The notes beneath the pieces are model-generated. The model searched no databases. It saw only the letters and a program-made list of their open reading frames with translations, and had not been told where the DNA came from. From a bacterium (GTDB lineage Bacteria; Calditrichota; Calditrichia; RBG-13-44-9; J042): 64,000 nucleotides of DNA. The stretch is from positions 1 through 64,000 of the forward strand of contig WFTQ01000070.1 of assembly GCA_015485355.1 (NCBI GenBank), written 5' to 3'. Below are positions 14,775 to 37,130 of this stretch, piece by piece; position 1 is the first letter of the stretch; each line of letters starts with the position of its first letter. A program made the translations under genes and the position numbers.

Positions 14775-16379
14775 ATGATTGATGGAATCCCTTTTCAGGA
14801 AAAAAAGGGTTGGAACCGGCGTTGGGTGCTGGTCGTGATGCTGGTGGTCGTTCAGGCGCTTTCCGCACAGACCGATCCGGATTCTTCCTTTATTTTCTGG
14901 GAAAATATGTTCGAGGCTGTTGCCGCGCAGGTGGAGTATTCTGTAACCGTGACGCCGGACAGCCTGGTACAATCTTTGTTACGGGAGGCACAACGCCTTG
15001 CCCGGGAGGGCGATTGGCCGGCGGCCCTGGAAATGGTGACCTTGATTCAGGAGCTGATCCGGGACGGGAGCGCCGCGGCAGCGGAAAGTGAAAACCCCTC
15101 TTCCCCGGCTGTCGATGAGCCGGTGCCGACCGATCCCCCGGAAGAGCGGCTCTCCGATACCGCCGCCCCCCTGCGCTTTCAGTGGGAAGTAGGGGTGGAC
15201 TATTCCCGCCAGGAATTTGAAATGACCTATTGGAACACAGACAGTTTGGTGGTGGATGAACTACGCAATCCTTACCTGGCCGTTCAATATACCCAGCGCT
15301 TTGGAAATGAAGCCCGAGGCTTCGATCTGTTCCATCGGTTACGCTGGGATCGTCAGTTTATTGTCTACAATGTGTTTAATCAATTTCAGATTCAGCGGGG
15401 CGAGTATATTTCCAGGGTCTATCTGGATGGAGGGATGTATCGTTCCGCTACCGATTCTCTGGGGCATTTTCTGGATGGGCAGTTGGGATGGGTGTGGGGG
15501 AAGTGGTACCGCTGGCCCACTCGCTGGTACGTGGGAGGACGTAGCCGGATCAAGCGTTATCTGCAAAAAGATTCCCTTCGGGCCGATTTAACCTACGGGT
15601 ATTTGCAGATGGTCGTGGAACACTACTTTTCTTTGAATGCCTCCCTCGCGCTGGAATATTTTCCCGAAATATACCGGGAGAGCCGGGGGGTGGGCCAGTT
15701 TTACCGGCAACATCGGCTTCAGGGGCGGTACGATTGGCGCCGTTCTTATCGTCAATGGATAAATGCGGTCCTGGGTTGGGTGTACCGCCGGTTTGAGAAT
15801 CAATTGAATCAGGAGCAATACCGGAACACCTACCGGCAAGCGGCGGTGCAATTTCGGATGGACTGGCCCCTGTTGGGACCCATTAACGGTTTCTGGGAAC
15901 TCTCCGCCGCCTGGCGCAAACACGGTCTCAGTGACGAAGTGAATCCCGACTTTCGGGAAATGGCGATAAAAGGACTGGTGAAATATTATCCTCAGCTCAC
16001 CCGTTCTCTGGGTGCGGGAATGGTGTGGGGATACCGCCGCCATTCCGCCGGGCGGAGCCTTCCCCGCTCCATTCGGGAACAGGATTATTCCATGATCGGT
16101 GGAGTGGTACAGGTGAATTATTTAAACCAGCGAGATTGGTTCTTCACCCTGGAATATCAACTGCTTTACGTCATCTATCCGGAATCGCGTACCACCAGCC
16201 TGCCCACCTTTTACTCCAACCGGGTGAATCATTCCATTACGGCCCTGGGATGGATTCCCCTGTTTTCCCGCTGGCAGTTACAGGTGTCGATCAATTACGA
16301 CCGGCAACGTCATCCTCAATACGAGAACAGTGACAGTCGCAATTCCGTCTTTAATGTGGGGCTGGTATATGCGTTTTGA
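14775..16379 (+). CDS. Outer-membrane beta-barrel-like protein with helical N-terminal part
   Basis: 534 residues. An N-terminal signal sequence (WVLVVMLVVVQALSAQ) follows about 16 cytoplasmic residues. Residues about 60-100 hold a short helical pair (LLREAQRLAREGDWPAALEMVTLI) like the repeats of the gene at 12007. From about 135 onward alternating aromatic beta strands run to a C-terminal phenylalanine (GLVYAF), the usual end of an outer-membrane barrel. Many W and Y residues fit barrel girdles. The family is not recognised. The shared helical motif and position suggest a link with the two preceding envelope genes. Confidence 0.8.
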   Translation: MIDGIPFQEKKGWNRRWVLVVMLVVVQALSAQTDPDSSFIFWENMFEAVAAQVEYSVTVTPDSLVQSLLREAQRLAREGDWPAALEMVTLIQELIRDGSAAAAESENPSSPAVDEPVPTDPPEERLSDTAAPLRFQWEVGVDYSRQEFEMTYWNTDSLVVDELRNPYLAVQYTQRFGNEARGFDLFHRLRWDRQFIVYNVFNQFQIQRGEYISRVYLDGGMYRSATDSLGHFLDGQLGWVWGKWYRWPTRWYVGGRSRIKRYLQKDSLRADLTYGYLQMVVEHYFSLNASLALEYFPEIYRESRGVGQFYRQHRLQGRYDWRRSYRQWINAVLGWVYRRFENQLNQEQYRNTYRQAAVQFRMDWPLLGPINGFWELSAAWRKHGLSDEVNPDFREMAIKGLVKYYPQLTRSLGAGMVWGYRRHSAGRSLPRSIREQDYSMIGGVVQVNYLNQRDWFFTLEYQLLYVIYPESRTTSLPTFYSNRVNHSITALGWIPLFSRWQLQVSINYDRQRHPQYENSDSRNSVFNVGLVYAF

Positions 16380-22095: not shown

Positions 22096-22542
22096 ATGGC
22101 GAAAAAGAAAGAACGACAGTTTGTGATCAAGCAGATAGTGCAGGAGGAGCATATTGCCAATCAGGCGGAATTGTTACAGAAGTTGAGGGAAAGGGGTTAC
22201 CAGACGACCCAGGCAACCTTATCCCGGGATCTCCACGAGATGGGCATCATCCGCACCCCCACGCAGGATGGGTATCGCTATGTCATCTCCGAAGAAGAGG
22301 GGAGTCAGTCCTTCGTCAAAGTGATCGGCATGGAGATTCTGGGAATTTATAATAACGAAAACGTTATTGTGATCAAAACGCTGACCGGCAGGGCGAAGGG
22401 GGTGGCCATTTTTATTGATCAGCTGAAAAATAAGCATATTCTGGGAACTGTTGCCGGGGAAAATGCGATTATCGTGGTGCCGGATACGGTGGAGAATATT
22501 CCTAAAATCAAAGAAGAACTGGAAAAGATTGCCTATCAATGA
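22096..22542 (+). CDS. argR: Arginine repressor ArgR
   Basis: 148 residues. The N-terminal winged helix-turn-helix contains QTTQATLSRDLHEMGI, the DNA-reading helix of ArgR/AhrC. The C-terminal half forms the arginine-binding hexamer core, although the usual GTxxGDDT reads as GTVAGENA. AAGGGAGAAG precedes the ATG. The last 4 bases overlap the next gene (ATGA), so it is translationally coupled to the radical SAM protein. It is the obvious candidate regulator for the LysW operon 17 kb away; that is inference. Confidence 0.92.
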   Translation: MAKKKERQFVIKQIVQEEHIANQAELLQKLRERGYQTTQATLSRDLHEMGIIRTPTQDGYRYVISEEEGSQSFVKVIGMEILGIYNNENVIVIKTLTGRAKGVAIFIDQLKNKHILGTVAGENAIIVVPDTVENIPKIKEELEKIAYQ

Positions 22543-28460: not shown

Positions 28461-31400
28461 ATGAGCGATTTAACAGATTCCTCGTATTTTGAATGTTTAT
28501 TTCAGCAATCGTCGGACAAGCGCGTCAGGGCGCAGGCCAATGCCGTCGAACTGCTGCTGGAGAAATTTCCCCATTTGAAAAACGGGTCCCGGGAACTCCA
28601 TCGCGATCCCCTGTATCGGGCATTGCGGGAATTACTCAGCGAGGCCACCTCAATTTTTGGCCTTTCCGATGTACAGCAGGCCGTTTACCATAACGATTCT
28701 GGAACCGCCTTCTTACCGGAACTGATCAAAAAGGCGTTGTTAACCATCCGGAGTCGTTTTGTGGTTCGGCCGGGAACCCTGGCCGATTTACAGCAATTTG
28801 TTCGCTATGCCCGGGAGCATCGGGTGCACTACTGTATTCGAGGTGCAGGGACCTGGCCTTTTGGTGGGGCCGTCCCGATGAATCAAGAGGTGATTCTTGA
28901 TTTGTCTTATCTGGATTTTTATCAGCTGAAAGAAGACGAGGCGATACTCACTGTGGGGCCCGGGGTGATCTTTGCCGATATGCGTCAATTCTTGCGCCGG
29001 AAAGGGTTTGCCCTGCGCCAGGATATCACCAATCCCCATTCGGGAACCATTTGTGGCTGGGTGGCTACCGGGGGGATAGGATTGGGGGTTTATAAATATG
29101 GACCGGTGCGCGAAGCGGTGGAAGCCGTTTTGTTGCTTAAACCCGACGGCCGATGGCACATTGTCCACCGGGAAAATGAAGCGTTTGATCGCTTATTTTC
29201 CAGCGAAGGGCAGCTGGGAATCATTGCCGGGGTTGCCCTGCGGGTGCAACCGTTGACCTATGTGTCCAAGCCCTTTGCCTTTTCCCTTCCCGATGCCCGG
29301 GCCGTTCGGCGGTTGGTGGAATTGATTCAAGCCTGGGGGCTGCGACCCACCTCCATCCTGTATTTCGATCGCAATTATCTGGCCACTACCTACGAGATTG
29401 AAAGGGAAAAAGTACAGGCGGAACTAAACCGAGCCCTGGAAAAAGAGGACGAATTGCTGATTCGCCGGGCACGCTCGGAACTGGATGTTGTGGAACAGCT
29501 GCGGGATTTACAACACACCGTGGTGCTGGAGTTCGATACCCGTGAGGATTACCAGGCCGCCTTGAAATATCCCCTGTTTAGTGCCACCCGGGAACGGCGT
29601 CGGTATCAGGGGCTGGTGTATGATCGCTTACCGGCCTCGGTAGCCCATAAATTGTGGGATCACCGTTACCAGCCGGTGCAAATGAAGCAAAAGGGGCCCT
29701 CCATGCTGGTCAGCGAGACCATTGTTCCTCTGAAACGTTTCCCGGAATATATGGCATTCATTCAGTCGGCTATTTCCGACTGGACGCAAAATCCCGTCAA
29801 GACCGAAGGACACGTTGTCAATGGAGAAGAGGTGTTGCTGCAAACCATTTTGCTGGCCAACACCGATACCCTTCGCCATAAGACCTACCTGGGGTTGGTG
29901 CCTTTCATGACCCAGGCGGCGATCCATTTTGGTGGGCGCCCTTATGGGATTGGAATTTGGAATTTGCCTTTCTTGAAAAGTATCGATTGCGGGGGTTCGG
30001 ACCGCCGGGTGCCGGCGTTGTGGGAGCTGAAAAAACAGTGGGACCCCCTGCGGCTGGTCAATCAGGTCAAGTTTGTGAATCCCGTGGGACGACGGTTGAG
30101 CTTGCGGCTGTTTCAGAAAATCACCCCGATCTTTATGAGTTATGGCGTGCGTTTGCTTTGGCGGGGGCGGGAAAACGGACGGGGAATGTCGTTGTACTCG
30201 ATTCCCCGCCTGTTCTGGAAGTTAAATAAATTGATTTTCCCACGGGTGATTCCTCCTCGATTGGAGACACCCCGGGAACCGATTTTGCAGATGGCCGTCC
30301 ATTGTGCCGAGTGCGATAGTTGTGAACGGGTCTGTCCTACCAGCGACGTCTTTGGGCTGCTGGGGGTGGCGACTCCCGTGACGCGGCGTAAAACGGCCGT
30401 CCGGCTGGCCCGTGGAGAAAACATCTCCCAACTGGAAGCGCTGGGATTTCTGGTGTGTACCCGGTGCGATAATTGCACCCGTATCTGTCCCACCGATATT
30501 CCTCTCACCCGGATGTTCGATCTGGTGGAGGCCGACACCCGATTTCAATTGGCCCTGGGGGTTTCTCCGGAAGACAAGGCCGATTTCATTGAGCGTTTCT
30601 GGGATATCATGAAACAAAGCCCCCTGTACCGGAAACATACGCAGGCCCAGCAGAAGGCGGAACGTTCCCATCTGGAGCACGGGCTGAAGATGCTTTATCC
30701 CAAGGGCTTTCCTTATGGAAAGTTGTTTATCGATCCGGAAACCTGCATTCGTTGTGGCATGTGCGCCCACGAGAATGCCTGTACCTATGGGGCTCGTATC
30801 GGCCGGCCCCGGGAAATCCCCCTCTTGCTGGACGAAAATTGTTCCCTGTGCAATGCCTGTATCAATTTCTGTCCCCAGAACAAGGCCATTCAGGCCGAAC
30901 GGGAGTATATGGATGAACTGATCGAACATGCCGTGGATCTGGAGGAAAAGCGGTATTGGGAGAATCGGAAAAAATTTCTGCGGGACACGACCGTGATTCA
31001 GCGGTCGCCGGAGTTGACCGATATGGCCGACATTTACCTTACCGAAGACATTTTAATGGAAATCGACAAGGAGGCTTCCACCGGGCAGATACCGGTTTCG
31101 GGAATGGGCCAGGGCGATCGTCACATGGGCATAGGCTTCGATGCGGAACGCTTCAGCCATTTTCACATTGTGGGCCCGGCGCAGAATCGTCTTCACGAAG
31201 GAGACCCCGACGAGGAACTTTCGGTTACCCTGGGACGCCGTTATCGTTATTGTCGCTTCGACGAGCAGGGCCGTTTGCACAATCCGGAATTCCCCACCCT
31301 GAAGTTGAAGAGTCCCATTCTATACAATGCCGTACCCCTGGAGAGCAATGGCCGGGTGGAATTGGCCTTTATCCGGGTGGCGGAACAACAGGGAACCCTG

Positions 31401-34400
31401 GTGGTCATCAAATTCCATCGATTTCTGGAATATTACGATTTCTGGAAGGAGGAGGGACAATACGAACAATTGCCACCGGTCATCGTCCCCCGATTCGATC
31501 AGGAGCTCATCGATCACCTCCAGGTGCATCCGCATGTGACCCGCGAGGTTCTGACCGATCTATGGGGCATGCCCATGTTTGAGGTGTTGTATCACGATCA
31601 AATGGATCAGACGATCGAATTCATTCGCAATTCGGTGGCGGCGACCAACGGAAGATCGCCCCTGATTTGTGGGTATCTGGAAGTATCGGAATACGACATT
31701 GTCGGTGGCATGGAAATTTTGCCCCACCTGCAGCAGAAGCTGGAGGACTTTTTGCGTTTGGGTGTGGATGTGATTCACATTCACGGGTTGCGCAACAAAG
31801 ATCATTATTTTGTGACTTCCCAGGCCGTGCGGGCCGTTCATCATTACTTGTTGGTCAGTGGTCGGCGGCATCTGGTATCCCTGATCGCCTCGGGGGGAAT
31901 CCGCTTGGCCTCGGACAGTCAAAAAACGATCCAGCGGGGGGCCGCCGCCACCCTGATTGATTTTGCCGCCCTGCTGGCATTGGACCCTTACGCTTATCGG
32001 GCCATTCTGGAGCGCAAAACCACCACGGAAAAATTGATGAACCTGGATATTGATTGGGCGGTGCAGCGGCTGAACAATCAGATGGAATCGCGAAAAGTCC
32101 AGATACTGGAAGTGCTGGGTGCGGCCGGGTTTAAAGATTTGAAAAAAACCGTGGGCGAAGAGGGCCGACTGATTGATTTCTATGAACTGGAAGAACGCAT
32201 CCAGAAGCAGATTTTCGAGGACGAGAATCGATTGGCGCTTTATGAAAAACTGAATCGGCAGCTCATGGCATCGGAACCGTTGCCGGAGGAGGCCTCGCCA
32301 CGGTTTTCGGAGCTGAAGCGCCGGGTGGTGCCCTTGCGTCCCCCGCACGACTTTTATCACCTGGAGGAGGTGAACCAGTCGGTGTATCGCCGGGATCATG
32401 TCTGGCCGGGCGAGGTGATCGAAACCCTGGGACGCATGGCCGCCGGAGACCCGCAAATGATGTATTTGCGCCGGGTGAAAGGCACCGGCCTTTTGGGGGA
32501 CGGTTTCGACGTGATGAAAATCCTTTACCAGAGAGATCCCGATCATATCCCCGAGGAAGAACTCGATCACATCCGCACCGCCGTGTTGCTGGACAAAGAT
32601 TTAATTTTGCGGGCCCCCTGGATGTTTGGCGGGAAATCCGTGGGATCCATCGGACTGGATAGCTGGCGCGCTCACGTGGTGGCCGCCCGGGAGCTGGGCA
32701 TCCAATACGATACCGGCGAAGGAGGATATCCCACCTGCTTCTTTTTGAACCGAAAAGGGGAACCCATCTTCTTTACCGAACCGGATATTCAGGCCATGAA
32801 GCCGCATTTCCAGCACGATCGTCAATACACTGTTCGGGAGATCATAGAAATTTTACAGCAACAGGGTATCACCCCCGAAAGTCATCCAAGGATATACCAG
32901 ACCCTGCGCCGATATCCAGAGCTTCAGCCCTTTTTGTTTTATGTGGTGGTCGATCAGGCGGACGAACCTTTTGTTTCCACGGAGTTGAAAACCGGTTTGT
33001 TTGGGGTCACCAAAGAGACGATCAAGAAGGCCCGCCGGGTGGTCATTGCTTACAGCCAGGGGGCTAAAATGGGCATTGGAGGCCATATTTTGGCCCAGAA
33101 GGTGAACCGACTGGTGGCCTATTTGCGTGGGGTGGAAGGGCTGGAATATCTGGACACGGAAAAAATCCAACAATTGATCCAGAAACTGGAAAAGATTGAA
33201 CAAGAAGCCCATCATCCCCTGAAGGCAGTATCCCGGCAGGCTTTTCCCTATTTGCAGCGCACCTTTGACGAAAACGAAATTTTCCCGGAGTTAAAACAGT
33301 GGCTCTGGCGAATCCAACAGCGGGCCTATGAGTTGCATTCCCGGAGTCAATTGGACCCCATCGAATTTGAACACATTTTGCGTTTGACCGAGGAAGTGAT
33401 TGGGCTTTCTTATACCAGTATTATTTCACCCTTCCCGTTTCACAATTGCTATTCCATCGAAGACGTCAAGGCGTTTATCGATGTGGTTCGCATGATCAAT
33501 CCCCGGGCGGTTGTGAGTGTAAAGGTTTCTCCCTCGGTGGATATTGAGTTTATCGCCGCCGGACTGGGACGCATCGCCAAAGATAATACCGAAGAGATAT
33601 TGAACCAAAAGGCTCGGGAGGTGCAGGCGAATACGCTGGAACTTTCCCGAATGCTTTCCGACTATGCCCGCACCTACGGAATGAGGATTGAATTGTGGCT
33701 GGATGGTCCCCGGGGGGGAACCGGTGCCTCTCCCAACATTATCAAAGGGCAAATGGGGATGCACATCGAGTATGCCATACCGTTGATCCATGATCGTCTG
33801 GTTCAGGATGGATTGCGAAATTATGTGAAGTTTTTTGTCAGCGGCGGGATTCGGACCTATGAAGATGTTATCAAGGCGATTGCCCTGGGGGCGGATGGGG
33901 TGATCTGGGGGACGGCGCCCATGGTGGCTATCGGATGTGACCGAAACCGGAATTGCCACGATGGGTGTTCCCGGGGGATTGCCACCAGCAATTTGGTTAT
34001 GCAGAATTTGCGGGATGTGGAGATCAACTCCCGCCAGATCATCAATGCCTTTCTCATCATGCAGATGCAGGTCATCCGGGCGCTGGCGGGGTTAGGATTG
34101 AAAGACATTCGGGAATTGCGCGGTCGCTTCGATAAAATTCAATGGCTGGGGTTGAAAGAGCGGGTCGATTTTCGCATCCGGCAGTATCGCGATTATCTGA
34201 AACAGCGTTCCCTGCAGAAAGCGCCTATCCATCCCACCGGACAGTCCAACTGCGGAGTGGCGGCGGTAATCGGTACCCACAATGTCCCCAGCGATGTGCT
34301 GGATCACACCCTGGCCGCCATGAAGAATCGGGGCATGGATGGCGTGGGGGTGGGAAAGACCCTGTGCTTTCCCGAATTTCCGGATCATTATGCCTATCGC

Positions 34401-37130
34401 ATCATGGTAAAAGGCAAGTTGCAACTGGAGGTGGAAGAAAACCTCCGGCAACAATCGGGCCCCATGGAGGAACGGGAATTCCGATATCGAGCCCGGCAGG
34501 AGTTGCTGAAGTATCGCTTCAAATTGGCGGAAAGCATCAAGAAGGTGTTTCTGGAACCGTATTTTGATTTCGCCGGAGACACACGCATCGACAAGGTGCG
34601 GGAGCGGTATAAATGCGATGAGCAGGGCCGGGAACGCGATTATCGGGAGTTCGGCAACGAGAACACCGATCCCGGGGATGTCTTTCGGTTTTTTGTACGG
34701 GTAAAGCCCCGGGTCTTGCAGGAGTTTATCGAGCAGGACATTCTGTTATCCCCGCGATTTGCTTACATCCGGGAATATTTCCCCGAGGTGAAGGCCCACA
34801 ATTACCGCCATCAGGAAAAGTTTCTGCGTAAGGCGGAAGATCTGTTTGTCTTTAACCATTCGGTTATGCTGACGCAAATTTTGTACGTCTGGGATGTGGC
34901 CCCCGACAGCTGGAATCAGTTTATTAAAAACCACAAGGCATTCAAAGAATATCTGCCGGTGCTGACTCAGGCCGACCCTTTATCCGATGGGTTTATTGAA
35001 ATTTACGGGGAAACCTTTTTGTATTTGTTGCGCGATTTTATCCGCACCTATCCCTGGCACTGGCATAAGGAGCAATACATTCCCCGAATCCGGCGCATAG
35101 CCGCGGTCATGTCCTGTGGAAAGAATTTTGCCGTGTGGAAGACGGCGGGCCGACAAATTCCCTGGGAGACCCCGCCTTCCCCTAACAATATTATCCATGT
35201 GCGGTTGGCCACGGGATCCATCGTGGAACAGATGAACGCCCATCCGTTTGCCAAATTGCACACCGCCTTGACGCACAATGGAGAAACGACCAATTACGAA
35301 ACCCTCAAACAACGTGTGGAGCAGTTTGGTCTTCCCCCCCTGGCGACCACCGATACCGAAGTGGCCTCTTTAAAATTTCATTTGTTGGCCGAAGAGCTGG
35401 AGTACCCCGATTGGGCTTTGTTCGAGAGTTTTTCCCCGACCACGGGGGATGATCTGGCGCTGATGCCCCCGGAAATTCGGCGCCAACTGGAAGAGGTTCA
35501 ACGGGTGGAATTTACCAGTTCGCCGGACGGTCCCTACCAATATCTTTGTCTGCGGCATCTACCGCACCGGCGGGTGACCGAACGAGTGGATTTGAAAGAC
35601 CCGGCCGATTTACGACCCAGCACCACGGCCCTCTGGGTGGACAAAACCCGCGGCAAAAAACGCGCCTTTAGCATCATCGCCTCCGAAGAACAAGCCATCC
35701 AACAAATGTTGGAACTGCTGGATCAGGAAGGGTTGATCGATGGCGCTGCTCCCGATCGGGTGATGGTCAGCCAGGGAATGATCAGCCGCTACCATTTCGA
35801 TGAAAGCGGCCGGATCACCAGCGTGGAGTGGATCGATCGTTACGGCCGGCCGATGCCTTTCGAAGAATTCGGCCGACATTATAGCTTTCGCAGAAATGCC
35901 CTTCGAACTCCGCGCAATGCCCCTTCGTTACAGCCGGCGGTAGACGACTTCCTGGTCCAGGCCGCACAAGGGGAGTGGCGTTCCTTTGCTGCGTGGATGG
36001 AAGAGCAGTTGCGGGAATGGGATTTTAATACCTATCGCTGGATATTCACCCAAATAGTTGGGAGAGCCGCCGTGAAACACGCCCCGGCCGTTAACCGGTT
36101 GTTTACCTTCTTTATCGATTACTTGCGCCGAATGGACACCGGCGACAAGGCGAAGAGTTCCTTGCTGGATATTACCCGCAAAATGTTCTACGAATGGCTG
36201 GATAACCTGGGGCAGAAAAAAGACCCGCAATGGGTGTGGGTGGGTCATAAAAGCGGAGCGATCCCTTCGGTACGGGAACCGGAACACCGTATCCTGTTAG
36301 TGGATGCCCGGGGATTCTTACCGGAAGGCACCGATCCCGATCACTGTTTGGCGGCGTTTTTAAGCCGGGCTTATGACCGGGGATGGCGGCGGTTTATCCT
36401 CTACCGGGTGAACGGGCAGCGTCTGATTTCCACCGCAGTGATGGGCCGTACCGATACGGATGACGTGGTGATGGATGTGTATGGAGTGCCCGGGGAATAT
36501 TTTGGCGCGTTCATGCAGGGGGGAACCATTCGGCTGCACGGCAATGCCCAGAATTTTTGTGCCATGACCATGCACCACGGAAACCTGTACGTGTTTGGAA
36601 ACGCCGGAAAGGTTTGCGGATACGCCTCCAAAGGCGGCAGGGTGTTCATCCTGGGGGACATTGTGGATCGGGCCTGGACGAATTCGGTCAACGATCCCCG
36701 GTGTCAGGAATTGCAGGTGCACGTTCTGGGGAGCGCCAGTAAATACTGTGGCGAATCTCTGATGGGGGGGCGGTTTTTCTTTGGTGGAATGTACTTCGAT
36801 AGTCGGGGACGGTTGCGGATTCAAGAGCGACCTTACCGGGGTACCAAATTGCTGGGCGGGGCCTCCCGGGGGAAAATGCTCTTTTTCGACCCTTACGACC
36901 GGTTGCATCCCCGCCAGTATACCCATGGGAAACTCGAAGCGATCGATCGCCGGGAATGGCCCCGGTGGCAACAAATGGTGCTGGATACTTTGCGGCTGGC
37001 CGGGGTGGCAGTAGAAGAGCACCAGGGAGTTTATCGTTTCGTTGCCGATGATCGGGTATTCGAAATTACGCCGATGCAGTTCAAATTGATCGTTCCCCAG
37101 GGTGGGCTCAAAGGGTATGAATCCCATTGA
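28461..37130 (+). CDS. Glutamate-synthase megaenzyme: FAD oxidase, Fe-S modules, two FMN regions, glutaminase and GXGXG domain in one chain
   Basis: 2,889 residues, uninterrupted. About 90-540 is a GlcD/YdiJ-type FAD-binding oxidase (FVVRPGTLADLQQFV, ILTVGPGV, ATGGIGLGVYKYG). Four Fe-S cysteine clusters follow, near 614 (CAECDSCERVCP), 664 (CTRCDNCTRICP), 761 (CIRCGMC) and 793 (CSLCNACINFCP). About 950-1240 is a degenerate glutamate-synthase-like FMN barrel (SLIASGGIRLASD). About 1380-1850 is a fuller FMN domain with FVSGGIRTYEDV, GGTGASP and the 3Fe-4S set at C1826, C1832 and C1836. From C1931 (NCGVAAVIG) a class II glutaminase runs to about 2330, with HVRLATG, THNGE and TTDTE. GXGXG repeats occupy about 2670-2800. 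Ordinary GltB has the glutaminase first. I infer glutamate synthesis fed by an FAD-linked substrate oxidation. The ATG at 28461 has only a weak ribosome site; TTG 28458 is adjacent. Confidence 0.9.
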   Translation: MSDLTDSSYFECLFQQSSDKRVRAQANAVELLLEKFPHLKNGSRELHRDPLYRALRELLSEATSIFGLSDVQQAVYHNDSGTAFLPELIKKALLTIRSRFVVRPGTLADLQQFVRYAREHRVHYCIRGAGTWPFGGAVPMNQEVILDLSYLDFYQLKEDEAILTVGPGVIFADMRQFLRRKGFALRQDITNPHSGTICGWVATGGIGLGVYKYGPVREAVEAVLLLKPDGRWHIVHRENEAFDRLFSSEGQLGIIAGVALRVQPLTYVSKPFAFSLPDARAVRRLVELIQAWGLRPTSILYFDRNYLATTYEIEREKVQAELNRALEKEDELLIRRARSELDVVEQLRDLQHTVVLEFDTREDYQAALKYPLFSATRERRRYQGLVYDRLPASVAHKLWDHRYQPVQMKQKGPSMLVSETIVPLKRFPEYMAFIQSAISDWTQNPVKTEGHVVNGEEVLLQTILLANTDTLRHKTYLGLVPFMTQAAIHFGGRPYGIGIWNLPFLKSIDCGGSDRRVPALWELKKQWDPLRLVNQVKFVNPVGRRLSLRLFQKITPIFMSYGVRLLWRGRENGRGMSLYSIPRLFWKLNKLIFPRVIPPRLETPREPILQMAVHCAECDSCERVCPTSDVFGLLGVATPVTRRKTAVRLARGENISQLEALGFLVCTRCDNCTRICPTDIPLTRMFDLVEADTRFQLALGVSPEDKADFIERFWDIMKQSPLYRKHTQAQQKAERSHLEHGLKMLYPKGFPYGKLFIDPETCIRCGMCAHENACTYGARIGRPREIPLLLDENCSLCNACINFCPQNKAIQAEREYMDELIEHAVDLEEKRYWENRKKFLRDTTVIQRSPELTDMADIYLTEDILMEIDKEASTGQIPVSGMGQGDRHMGIGFDAERFSHFHIVGPAQNRLHEGDPDEELSVTLGRRYRYCRFDEQGRLHNPEFPTLKLKSPILYNAVPLESNGRVELAFIRVAEQQGTLVVIKFHRFLEYYDFWKEEGQYEQLPPVIVPRFDQELIDHLQVHPHVTREVLTDLWGMPMFEVLYHDQMDQTIEFIRNSVAATNGRSPLICGYLEVSEYDIVGGMEILPHLQQKLEDFLRLGVDVIHIHGLRNKDHYFVTSQAVRAVHHYLLVSGRRHLVSLIASGGIRLASDSQKTIQRGAAATLIDFAALLALDPYAYRAILERKTTTEKLMNLDIDWAVQRLNNQMESRKVQILEVLGAAGFKDLKKTVGEEGRLIDFYELEERIQKQIFEDENRLALYEKLNRQLMASEPLPEEASPRFSELKRRVVPLRPPHDFYHLEEVNQSVYRRDHVWPGEVIETLGRMAAGDPQMMYLRRVKGTGLLGDGFDVMKILYQRDPDHIPEEELDHIRTAVLLDKDLILRAPWMFGGKSVGSIGLDSWRAHVVAARELGIQYDTGEGGYPTCFFLNRKGEPIFFTEPDIQAMKPHFQHDRQYTVREIIEILQQQGITPESHPRIYQTLRRYPELQPFLFYVVVDQADEPFVSTELKTGLFGVTKETIKKARRVVIAYSQGAKMGIGGHILAQKVNRLVAYLRGVEGLEYLDTEKIQQLIQKLEKIEQEAHHPLKAVSRQAFPYLQRTFDENEIFPELKQWLWRIQQRAYELHSRSQLDPIEFEHILRLTEEVIGLSYTSIISPFPFHNCYSIEDVKAFIDVVRMINPRAVVSVKVSPSVDIEFIAAGLGRIAKDNTEEILNQKAREVQANTLELSRMLSDYARTYGMRIELWLDGPRGGTGASPNIIKGQMGMHIEYAIPLIHDRLVQDGLRNYVKFFVSGGIRTYEDVIKAIALGADGVIWGTAPMVAIGCDRNRNCHDGCSRGIATSNLVMQNLRDVEINSRQIINAFLIMQMQVIRALAGLGLKDIRELRGRFDKIQWLGLKERVDFRIRQYRDYLKQRSLQKAPIHPTGQSNCGVAAVIGTHNVPSDVLDHTLAAMKNRGMDGVGVGKTLCFPEFPDHYAYRIMVKGKLQLEVEENLRQQSGPMEEREFRYRARQELLKYRFKLAESIKKVFLEPYFDFAGDTRIDKVRERYKCDEQGRERDYREFGNENTDPGDVFRFFVRVKPRVLQEFIEQDILLSPRFAYIREYFPEVKAHNYRHQEKFLRKAEDLFVFNHSVMLTQILYVWDVAPDSWNQFIKNHKAFKEYLPVLTQADPLSDGFIEIYGETFLYLLRDFIRTYPWHWHKEQYIPRIRRIAAVMSCGKNFAVWKTAGRQIPWETPPSPNNIIHVRLATGSIVEQMNAHPFAKLHTALTHNGETTNYETLKQRVEQFGLPPLATTDTEVASLKFHLLAEELEYPDWALFESFSPTTGDDLALMPPEIRRQLEEVQRVEFTSSPDGPYQYLCLRHLPHRRVTERVDLKDPADLRPSTTALWVDKTRGKKRAFSIIASEEQAIQQMLELLDQEGLIDGAAPDRVMVSQGMISRYHFDESGRITSVEWIDRYGRPMPFEEFGRHYSFRRNALRTPRNAPSLQPAVDDFLVQAAQGEWRSFAAWMEEQLREWDFNTYRWIFTQIVGRAAVKHAPAVNRLFTFFIDYLRRMDTGDKAKSSLLDITRKMFYEWLDNLGQKKDPQWVWVGHKSGAIPSVREPEHRILLVDARGFLPEGTDPDHCLAAFLSRAYDRGWRRFILYRVNGQRLISTAVMGRTDTDDVVMDVYGVPGEYFGAFMQGGTIRLHGNAQNFCAMTMHHGNLYVFGNAGKVCGYASKGGRVFILGDIVDRAWTNSVNDPRCQELQVHVLGSASKYCGESLMGGRFFFGGMYFDSRGRLRIQERPYRGTKLLGGASRGKMLFFDPYDRLHPRQYTHGKLEAIDRREWPRWQQMVLDTLRLAGVAVEEHQGVYRFVADDRVFEITPMQFKLIVPQGGLKGYESH

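Follow-up and report, generated by a model that had tools for sequence, protein, structure and literature searches.

Much of the nitrogen in living matter enters through glutamate synthase, one of the main routes of assimilation. The characterized forms of the enzyme differ in their electron donor, which is NADPH, NADH, or ferredoxin and, putatively, F420H2. The known forms comprise the NADPH-dependent enzyme, the fused NADH-dependent chain, the ferredoxin-dependent enzyme, and the split archaeal version (PMC8097209). Canonical GltB begins with its glutaminase and receives NADPH input from GltD. The archaeal-type enzyme is spread over separate genes for the glutaminase, a [4Fe-4S]-FMN protein, and a GXGXG protein, with a gene for a pyridine-nucleotide-type flavoprotein nearby in some of the examples examined. 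A precedent for exchange of the electron-input module comes from the putative F420H2-dependent glutamate synthases, which are built of separate subunits, one of them an F420H2 dehydrogenase subunit (PMC3448663).

The gene analyzed here occupies positions 28461 to 37130 on the plus strand of the window (the whole stretch of 64,000 nucleotides under study). With canonical GltB plus GltD and with the eukaryotic NADH-dependent chain, its product shares the glutaminase, the central barrel, the [3Fe-4S] FMN barrel, the GXGXG domain, and presumably the overall reaction, but it carries a PCMH-type FAD module and four [4Fe-4S] clusters in place of GltD. Among well-known enzymes, the archaeal-type one stands closest in both barrels and in the ferredoxin part, but it has neither the PCMH FAD module nor a second barrel and is unfused. 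The exchange of the input module is shared with the putative F420H2-dependent enzymes, but here the substitute is a PCMH FAD module within a single fused chain. This module has the fold found in LctD, GlcD/GlcF, YdiJ, and LDHD, and the coupling to dicluster Fe-S regions is shared with those of them that are Fe-S linked; however, the metal site and catalytic histidine present in those enzymes are missing. A full-text search limited to open-licence papers retrieved no published account of this architecture or of the four-gene A-B-C-D operon described below.

We consider it likely that the chain forms an entire glutamine-dependent glutamate synthase (GOGAT), with an integral electron-input unit taking the role of GltD, that it was derived by fusion of an operon, and that it is cut before Cys1931. 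Support from sequence and genome context comes from the domains, the catalytic residues, the relationship to the operon, the link to nitrogen genes, and the absence of GltB and GltD; the direction of electron flow, a tunnel role for the first barrel, and the cleavage are what we infer beyond that. Judged on sequences and MAGs, the basis of all results given here, the fused-chain family looks like a further electron-donor class of glutamate synthase.

Reading frame and distribution of the fused gene

The gene is a single uninterrupted frame, from an ATG at 28461 to a stop codon ending at 37130, encoding 2,889 aa. Its source genome is 3.44 Mb in size and 98.7% complete. Of 40 genomes of the same class, 16 carried the gene. 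Full-length single frames were recovered in seven further members of the class (G001, G004, G006, G008, G014, G015, and G021), and a near-full copy in G002 is ended by a contig edge. A genome-wide scan gave 34 loci that form a Calditrichota/KSB1 group, with proteins of about 2,850 to 2,950 aa, and a Desulfobacterota group, with proteins of about 2,530 to 2,570 aa whose best segments are 30 to 43% identical. Within Calditrichota/KSB1, full-length copies from several genera and families share 56 to 86% identity.

A sequence-only reading of this DNA had described one 2,889-residue chain, and the frame bears this out. Relatives in which the modules are separate genes do exist, but the same single frame recurs in many independent genomes from several families and two phyla, so that an artificial or chance joining has next to no credibility; the independent full-length copies exclude an assembly fusion. 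Five loci (L040, L041, L043, L047, and L053) show two or three overlapping or adjacent frames instead of the long one; coverage is 2.7 in L043. These breaks are likely frame errors in MAG contigs rather than gene splits because they fall off domain borders or the frames overlap.

Domain architecture

Pfam searches recovered, in order, a PCMH-type FAD-binding domain, an FAD-oxidase C-terminal domain, two dicluster Fe-S regions, an FMN domain, a class II glutaminase, and a GXGXG domain. All of these lie on the plus strand, and residue invariance was scored over 24 full-length fused relatives, with 12 split proteins added for the FAD site (36 in total). FAD_binding_4 (PF01565) matches residues 100 to 233 (28758 to 29159; E 4.8e-26); R127, GG135-136, GW199-200, GG204-205, and EG249-250 are kept in this part of the chain, and the FAD-binding residues are almost all invariant among relatives, which makes use of FAD by the module very probable. 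The FAD-oxidase C-terminal or substrate domain (residues 281 to 535; 29301 to 30065) is a weak Pfam match, with the D-lactate dehydrogenase fold recognized from a structure model and profiles. The dicluster matches at residues 614 to 680 and 756 to 811 contain two 2x[4Fe-4S] regions of eight cysteines each (residues 615 to 676, 30303 to 30488; residues 762 to 804, 30744 to 30872), and all 16 cysteines of these four motifs are invariant in the 24 relatives.

Next come two barrels of the glutamate synthase type. The first (residues 855 to 1262; 31023 to 32246), recognized by profile comparison, is degenerate and has no [3Fe-4S] cysteines. The second is the FMN/synthase barrel (residues 1292 to 1905; 32334 to 34175), in which a [3Fe-4S] motif of the form C-x5-C-x3-C (Cys 1826, 1832, and 1836; 33936 to 33968) is invariant in 24 of 24 relatives. 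Glu_synthase (PF01645) matches in three stretches (E 2.8e-61). A variable linker (residues 1906 to 1930; 34176 to 34250) leads to the glutaminase (residues 1931 to about 2600; 34251 to 36260), with GATase_6 matching residues 2244 to 2302, and the chain ends in the GXGXG domain (36261 to 37127; PF01493 at residues 2665 to 2772, with 41.6 bits against a cutoff of 32.5). We found no GltD-type domain (PF14691) in the chain. These results agree with the sequence-only reading on the Fe-S clusters, of which it had counted at least four, on both GltS-type regions, on the glutaminase and GXGXG repeats, on the missing GltD-type NADPH input, and on an order, FMN before glutaminase, that is permuted relative to GltB. 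The model for whole GltB (NF008730) scored 123 bits against a cutoff of 1047, and the glutaminase cysteine is at residue 1931 instead of in the N-terminal glutaminase of the canonical enzyme.

A four-gene operon with the same modules and the probable origin of the domain order

In many of 155 genomes from the class of a Syntrophaceae carrier, the same modules are encoded by separate neighboring genes (L084 to L092 and L097 to L099): gene A (FAD plus the first Fe-S pair; about 620 aa), gene B (second Fe-S pair plus barrel; about 475 aa), gene C (Fe-S pair plus FMN barrel; about 500 aa), and gene D (glutaminase plus GXGXG; about 890 aa). The order A-B-C-D is the module order of the fused chain. 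These operons possess both barrels and a gene D already arranged as glutaminase-GXGXG, and their FAD protein shows the same PYGxGxWN active-site replacement; they differ in being separate genes and in that gene C keeps a ferredoxin part of its own, which was lost in the fused chain. The latter thus retained one of the two ferredoxin parts found in B and C, and its second 2x[4Fe-4S] region matches that of gene B.

Profile comparisons matched the first barrel to gene B (100%, E 2.1e-39) and to the FMN barrel of the archaeal-type enzyme (99.4%, E 2.5e-21), and gene B to gene C (100%, E 2.6e-43). Genes B and C are clearly duplicates of each other; the free-standing gene B barrel exceeds the PF01645 cutoff unaided. 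We rejected a plain GltB central domain as the identity of the first barrel, its positional counterpart in GltB, since the direct comparison with GltB was weak (66% and 45% probability) and the archaeal-type barrel matched better. A structure model of both barrels, of moderate quality (pTM 0.56), had glutamate synthases as its top structural matches. In a tree of FMN domains with canonical GltB as the outgroup, the fused chains and gene C formed one clade (support 1.0) that was sister to the archaeal-type enzyme. From these relationships, the fused chain most likely arose by joining of the four-gene operon in gene order, and FMN would precede the glutaminase because the glutaminase gene came last in that operon. 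For the central domain of glutamate synthases, both duplication of the FMN barrel and an independent origin have been proposed (PMC8097209), and the B and C duplicates, each with its own ferredoxin part, bear on that question.

Gene C of L084 to L097 and the archaeal-type enzyme have an extra cysteine (C-x2-C-x2-C...) compared with the C-x5-C-x3-C of the fused chain, possibly a difference between a [4Fe-4S] and a [3Fe-4S] cluster. A B-C-D variant that lacks gene A occurs in L093 to L096, flanked on one side by a methylenetetrahydrofolate reductase gene and on the other by hdrC/hdrB/hdrA-like genes; the hdrA-like one carries a GltD-type Fer4_20 domain (both sides were checked by Pfam in L093 and L095). 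This arrangement suggests a B-C-D core served by a different electron-input module.

Probable glutamate synthase function and the nitrogen context

The synthase residues Q1533, K1536, R1556, and E1667 and the glutaminase residues C1931 (the nucleophile), R2248 (RxATG motif), N2273 and G2274 (HNG motif), and D2298 are invariant in all 24 fused relatives. We take the first three to correspond to the 2-oxoglutarate-binding residues of Azospirillum glutamate synthase and E1667 to the residue that couples glutaminase and synthase. This conservation, together with the gene neighborhoods and the lack of GltB and GltD, makes it very probable that the 2,889-aa protein functions as a glutamate synthase. 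Gene neighborhoods in Desulfobacterota point the same way. In 13 of the 14 loci there that were informative, glnA is the immediate neighbor of the fused gene and is read from the same strand. Downstream come a small ABM-domain gene and carA-carB (the latter in 12 of the 14), and members of the amtB, glnB (P-II), and glnD families recur upstream, giving the order amtB-glnB-glnD-glnA-[fused gene]-carAB. The split operon is accompanied by a type III glutamine synthetase, divergently oriented in 8 of the 12 loci that contain gene A (L084, L085, L088, L089, L090, L092, L097, and L098; three of the eight were scanned by Pfam and the others recognized by their shared N-terminal sequence), whereas the fused gene adjoins a type I enzyme. 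Because two types of glutamine synthetase thus adjoin two forms of the same enzyme, a role in a GS-GOGAT pathway is strongly indicated. A PPDK_N-type kinase frame lies on the other side of the split operon in several loci (checked in L088). In the Calditrichota neighborhoods examined, no nitrogen genes adjoin the fused gene.

Canonical GltB (PF04898) was found in 4 of 37 carrier genomes against 13 of 14 controls. Of these four, three belong to the 16 carriers of the class, none to the 15 Desulfobacterota carriers, and one to the 6 remaining carriers; the count leaves out G075, where a match of 23 bits falls in a frame of 570 aa. Within the class, GltB tends to be missing where the fused gene is present, but the trend falls short of significance (Fisher p = 0.10), and shared ancestry confounds it. 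Searches of the source genome retrieved no PF04898, and neither it nor its same-genus relative G001 yielded the GltD-type PF14691; the source genome does encode GDH-family proteins and a single glutamine synthetase. Two carriers, G067 and G073, have a glutamine synthetase and gave no match to the GDH family. As the carriers are incomplete MAGs, these absences of GltB, GltD, and GDH are provisional; with that proviso, the fused protein appears to be the only glutamate synthase of this genome and of most other carriers found.

Stand-alone barrels of this family also serve other reactions, as in MgsABC, and a non-glutamate product, made by an N-methylglutamate-synthase-like or other amidotransferase reaction, might be envisaged, all the more as the B-C-D variant between metF and hdr genes shows that the family may be versatile. 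We hold this to be very improbable, given the linkage to glnA, carAB, amtB, and glnD or to the type III glutamine synthetase, the replacement of GltB by the fused protein, and the retention of the glutamine, lysine, and arginine of the 2-oxoglutarate site together with the coupling glutamate. A glutamate synthase with its own electron-input module, as the sequence-only reading had it, is supported by the invariant residues, the gene neighborhoods, and the lack of GltB and GltD.

The FAD module and the electron donor

Structure comparison relates the model of the FAD module to mouse LDHD (mLDHD; TM 0.80 by target) and also to LctD, and its profile aligns over the full lengths of both. In mLDHD, Arg347, His398, His405, Glu442, and His443 are each essential, and Ala mutants of His405, Glu442, and His443 are inactive (PMC10589216). 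R402, the counterpart of Arg347, is kept in 36 of 36 proteins; H451, that of His398, is retained by the fused proteins and missing from the split ones. His405 is replaced by V, I, A, or T and His443 by Tyr in all 36, and Glu442 by Pro in 35 and by Thr once. Accordingly, the invariant YGxGxWN, preceded by Pro in 35 of 36, stands in place of GEHGxG (PYGIGIWN in this protein, residues 494 to 501, 29940 to 29963), and neither HxGDGNxH nor EHGxG, which hold the metal ligands and catalytic histidine of D-2-hydroxyacid dehydrogenases, was found in the 24 fused and 12 split proteins.

The sequence-only reading had described a YdiJ/GlcD-like oxidase that could pass electrons from a 2-hydroxyacid such as D-lactate or D-2-hydroxyglutarate to glutamate synthesis. 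The PCMH FAD fold stands (PF01565 and the likeness to mLDHD), but the resemblance stops short of YdiJ itself, whose model (NF049975) scored 24 bits against a cutoff of 1350, and the active site has been replaced. A 2-hydroxyacid donor could draw on the fold, on a sequence distantly related to those of D-lactate dehydrogenases and LctD, on the substrate-carboxylate arginine R402, and, in the fused form, on H451. However, with two of the three metal ligands (His405 and Glu442 of mLDHD) and the catalytic base (His443) replaced, metal-assisted hydride removal from a D-2-hydroxyacid is unlikely; both motifs are retained by 13 of 15 control FAD-linked oxidases, and of the five residues essential in mLDHD only the arginine persists throughout. 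The donor is therefore probably not a D-2-hydroxyacid used by the standard metal mechanism, and we regard the 2-hydroxyacid reading as a whole as unlikely; the further suggestion that the enzyme would make its own 2-oxoglutarate from 2-hydroxyglutarate finds no support. Supply through a carrier of the ETF or ferredoxin type is possible, if doubtful. The archaeal-type enzyme usually has at its front what corresponds to the second dicluster region; LctD, closest by sequence profile among the relatives of solved structure, operates with EtfAB and ferredoxin; and four [4Fe-4S] clusters exceed the needs of a simple relay. Against this, no EtfAB or ferredoxin gene adjoins the fused gene in the scanned neighborhoods, and the invariant FAD-binding residues imply that the FAD is in use. 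The candidate donors are NAD(P)H, ETF, ferredoxin, and some further small molecule, and the data favor none of them.

Whatever the donor, we propose that it would reduce the FAD of the N-terminal PCMH module and that electrons would reach FMN by way of the four [4Fe-4S] clusters and the [3Fe-4S] cluster. Glutamine would be split by the glutaminase at the C-terminal end, and the ammonia would be tunneled to 2-oxoglutarate at the FMN, yielding two glutamates. The first barrel may be a duplicate that has degenerated catalytically and contributes to the tunnel, a part played in GltB by the central domain.

The mid-chain cysteine and predicted maturation

Catalysis by class II glutaminases relies on a cysteine at the N terminus, whose amino group takes part in the reaction. 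No more than a few dozen residues separate this cysteine from the N terminus in canonical GltB, in the archaeal-type enzyme, and in gene D (in the last, about 35 to 50 residues from that of the frame). A mid-chain glutaminase conflicts with this chemistry, a point absent from the sequence-only reading, because about 1,930 residues precede Cys1931 (TGC codon, 34251 to 34253). An internal translation start for a separate glutaminase was considered and rejected: among codons 1900 to 1930 of the window gene there is no ATG, GTG, or TTG, and Cys1931 follows an Asn or an Asp in every relative (11 and 13 of the 24, respectively), so that internal initiation cannot give an N-terminal cysteine.

The position of the nucleophile leads to the prediction of a maturation cut. 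The precursor is probably cleaved after residue 1930, at the end of the variable linker, into chains of about 1,930 and 959 residues, and the cut would free the N-terminal cysteine of the glutaminase. Of the ways to accommodate a mid-chain Cys1931, cleavage in the linker is the simplest; an inactive or ammonia-only glutaminase could instead be the consequence. A bolder combination, in which the chain cuts itself before Cys1931 and a metal-free PCMH FAD site oxidizes some small molecule directly, without NAD(P)H or ferredoxin, is offered as a speculation that we think rather improbable.

Neighboring genes in the window

An Rfam search of the window gave no match. The neighbors of the fused gene are mostly housekeeping genes (RNase E/G, SRP54, RimM, and TrmD). 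Farther upstream, a 534-residue frame without a Pfam match is found at 14775 to 16379. A flavin-reductase-like gene (PF01613; 38880 to 39383) lies about 1.7 kb downstream and shows no conserved link with the fused gene in other loci. An ArgR-type arginine repressor gene is present about 6 kb upstream, at 22096 to 22542.
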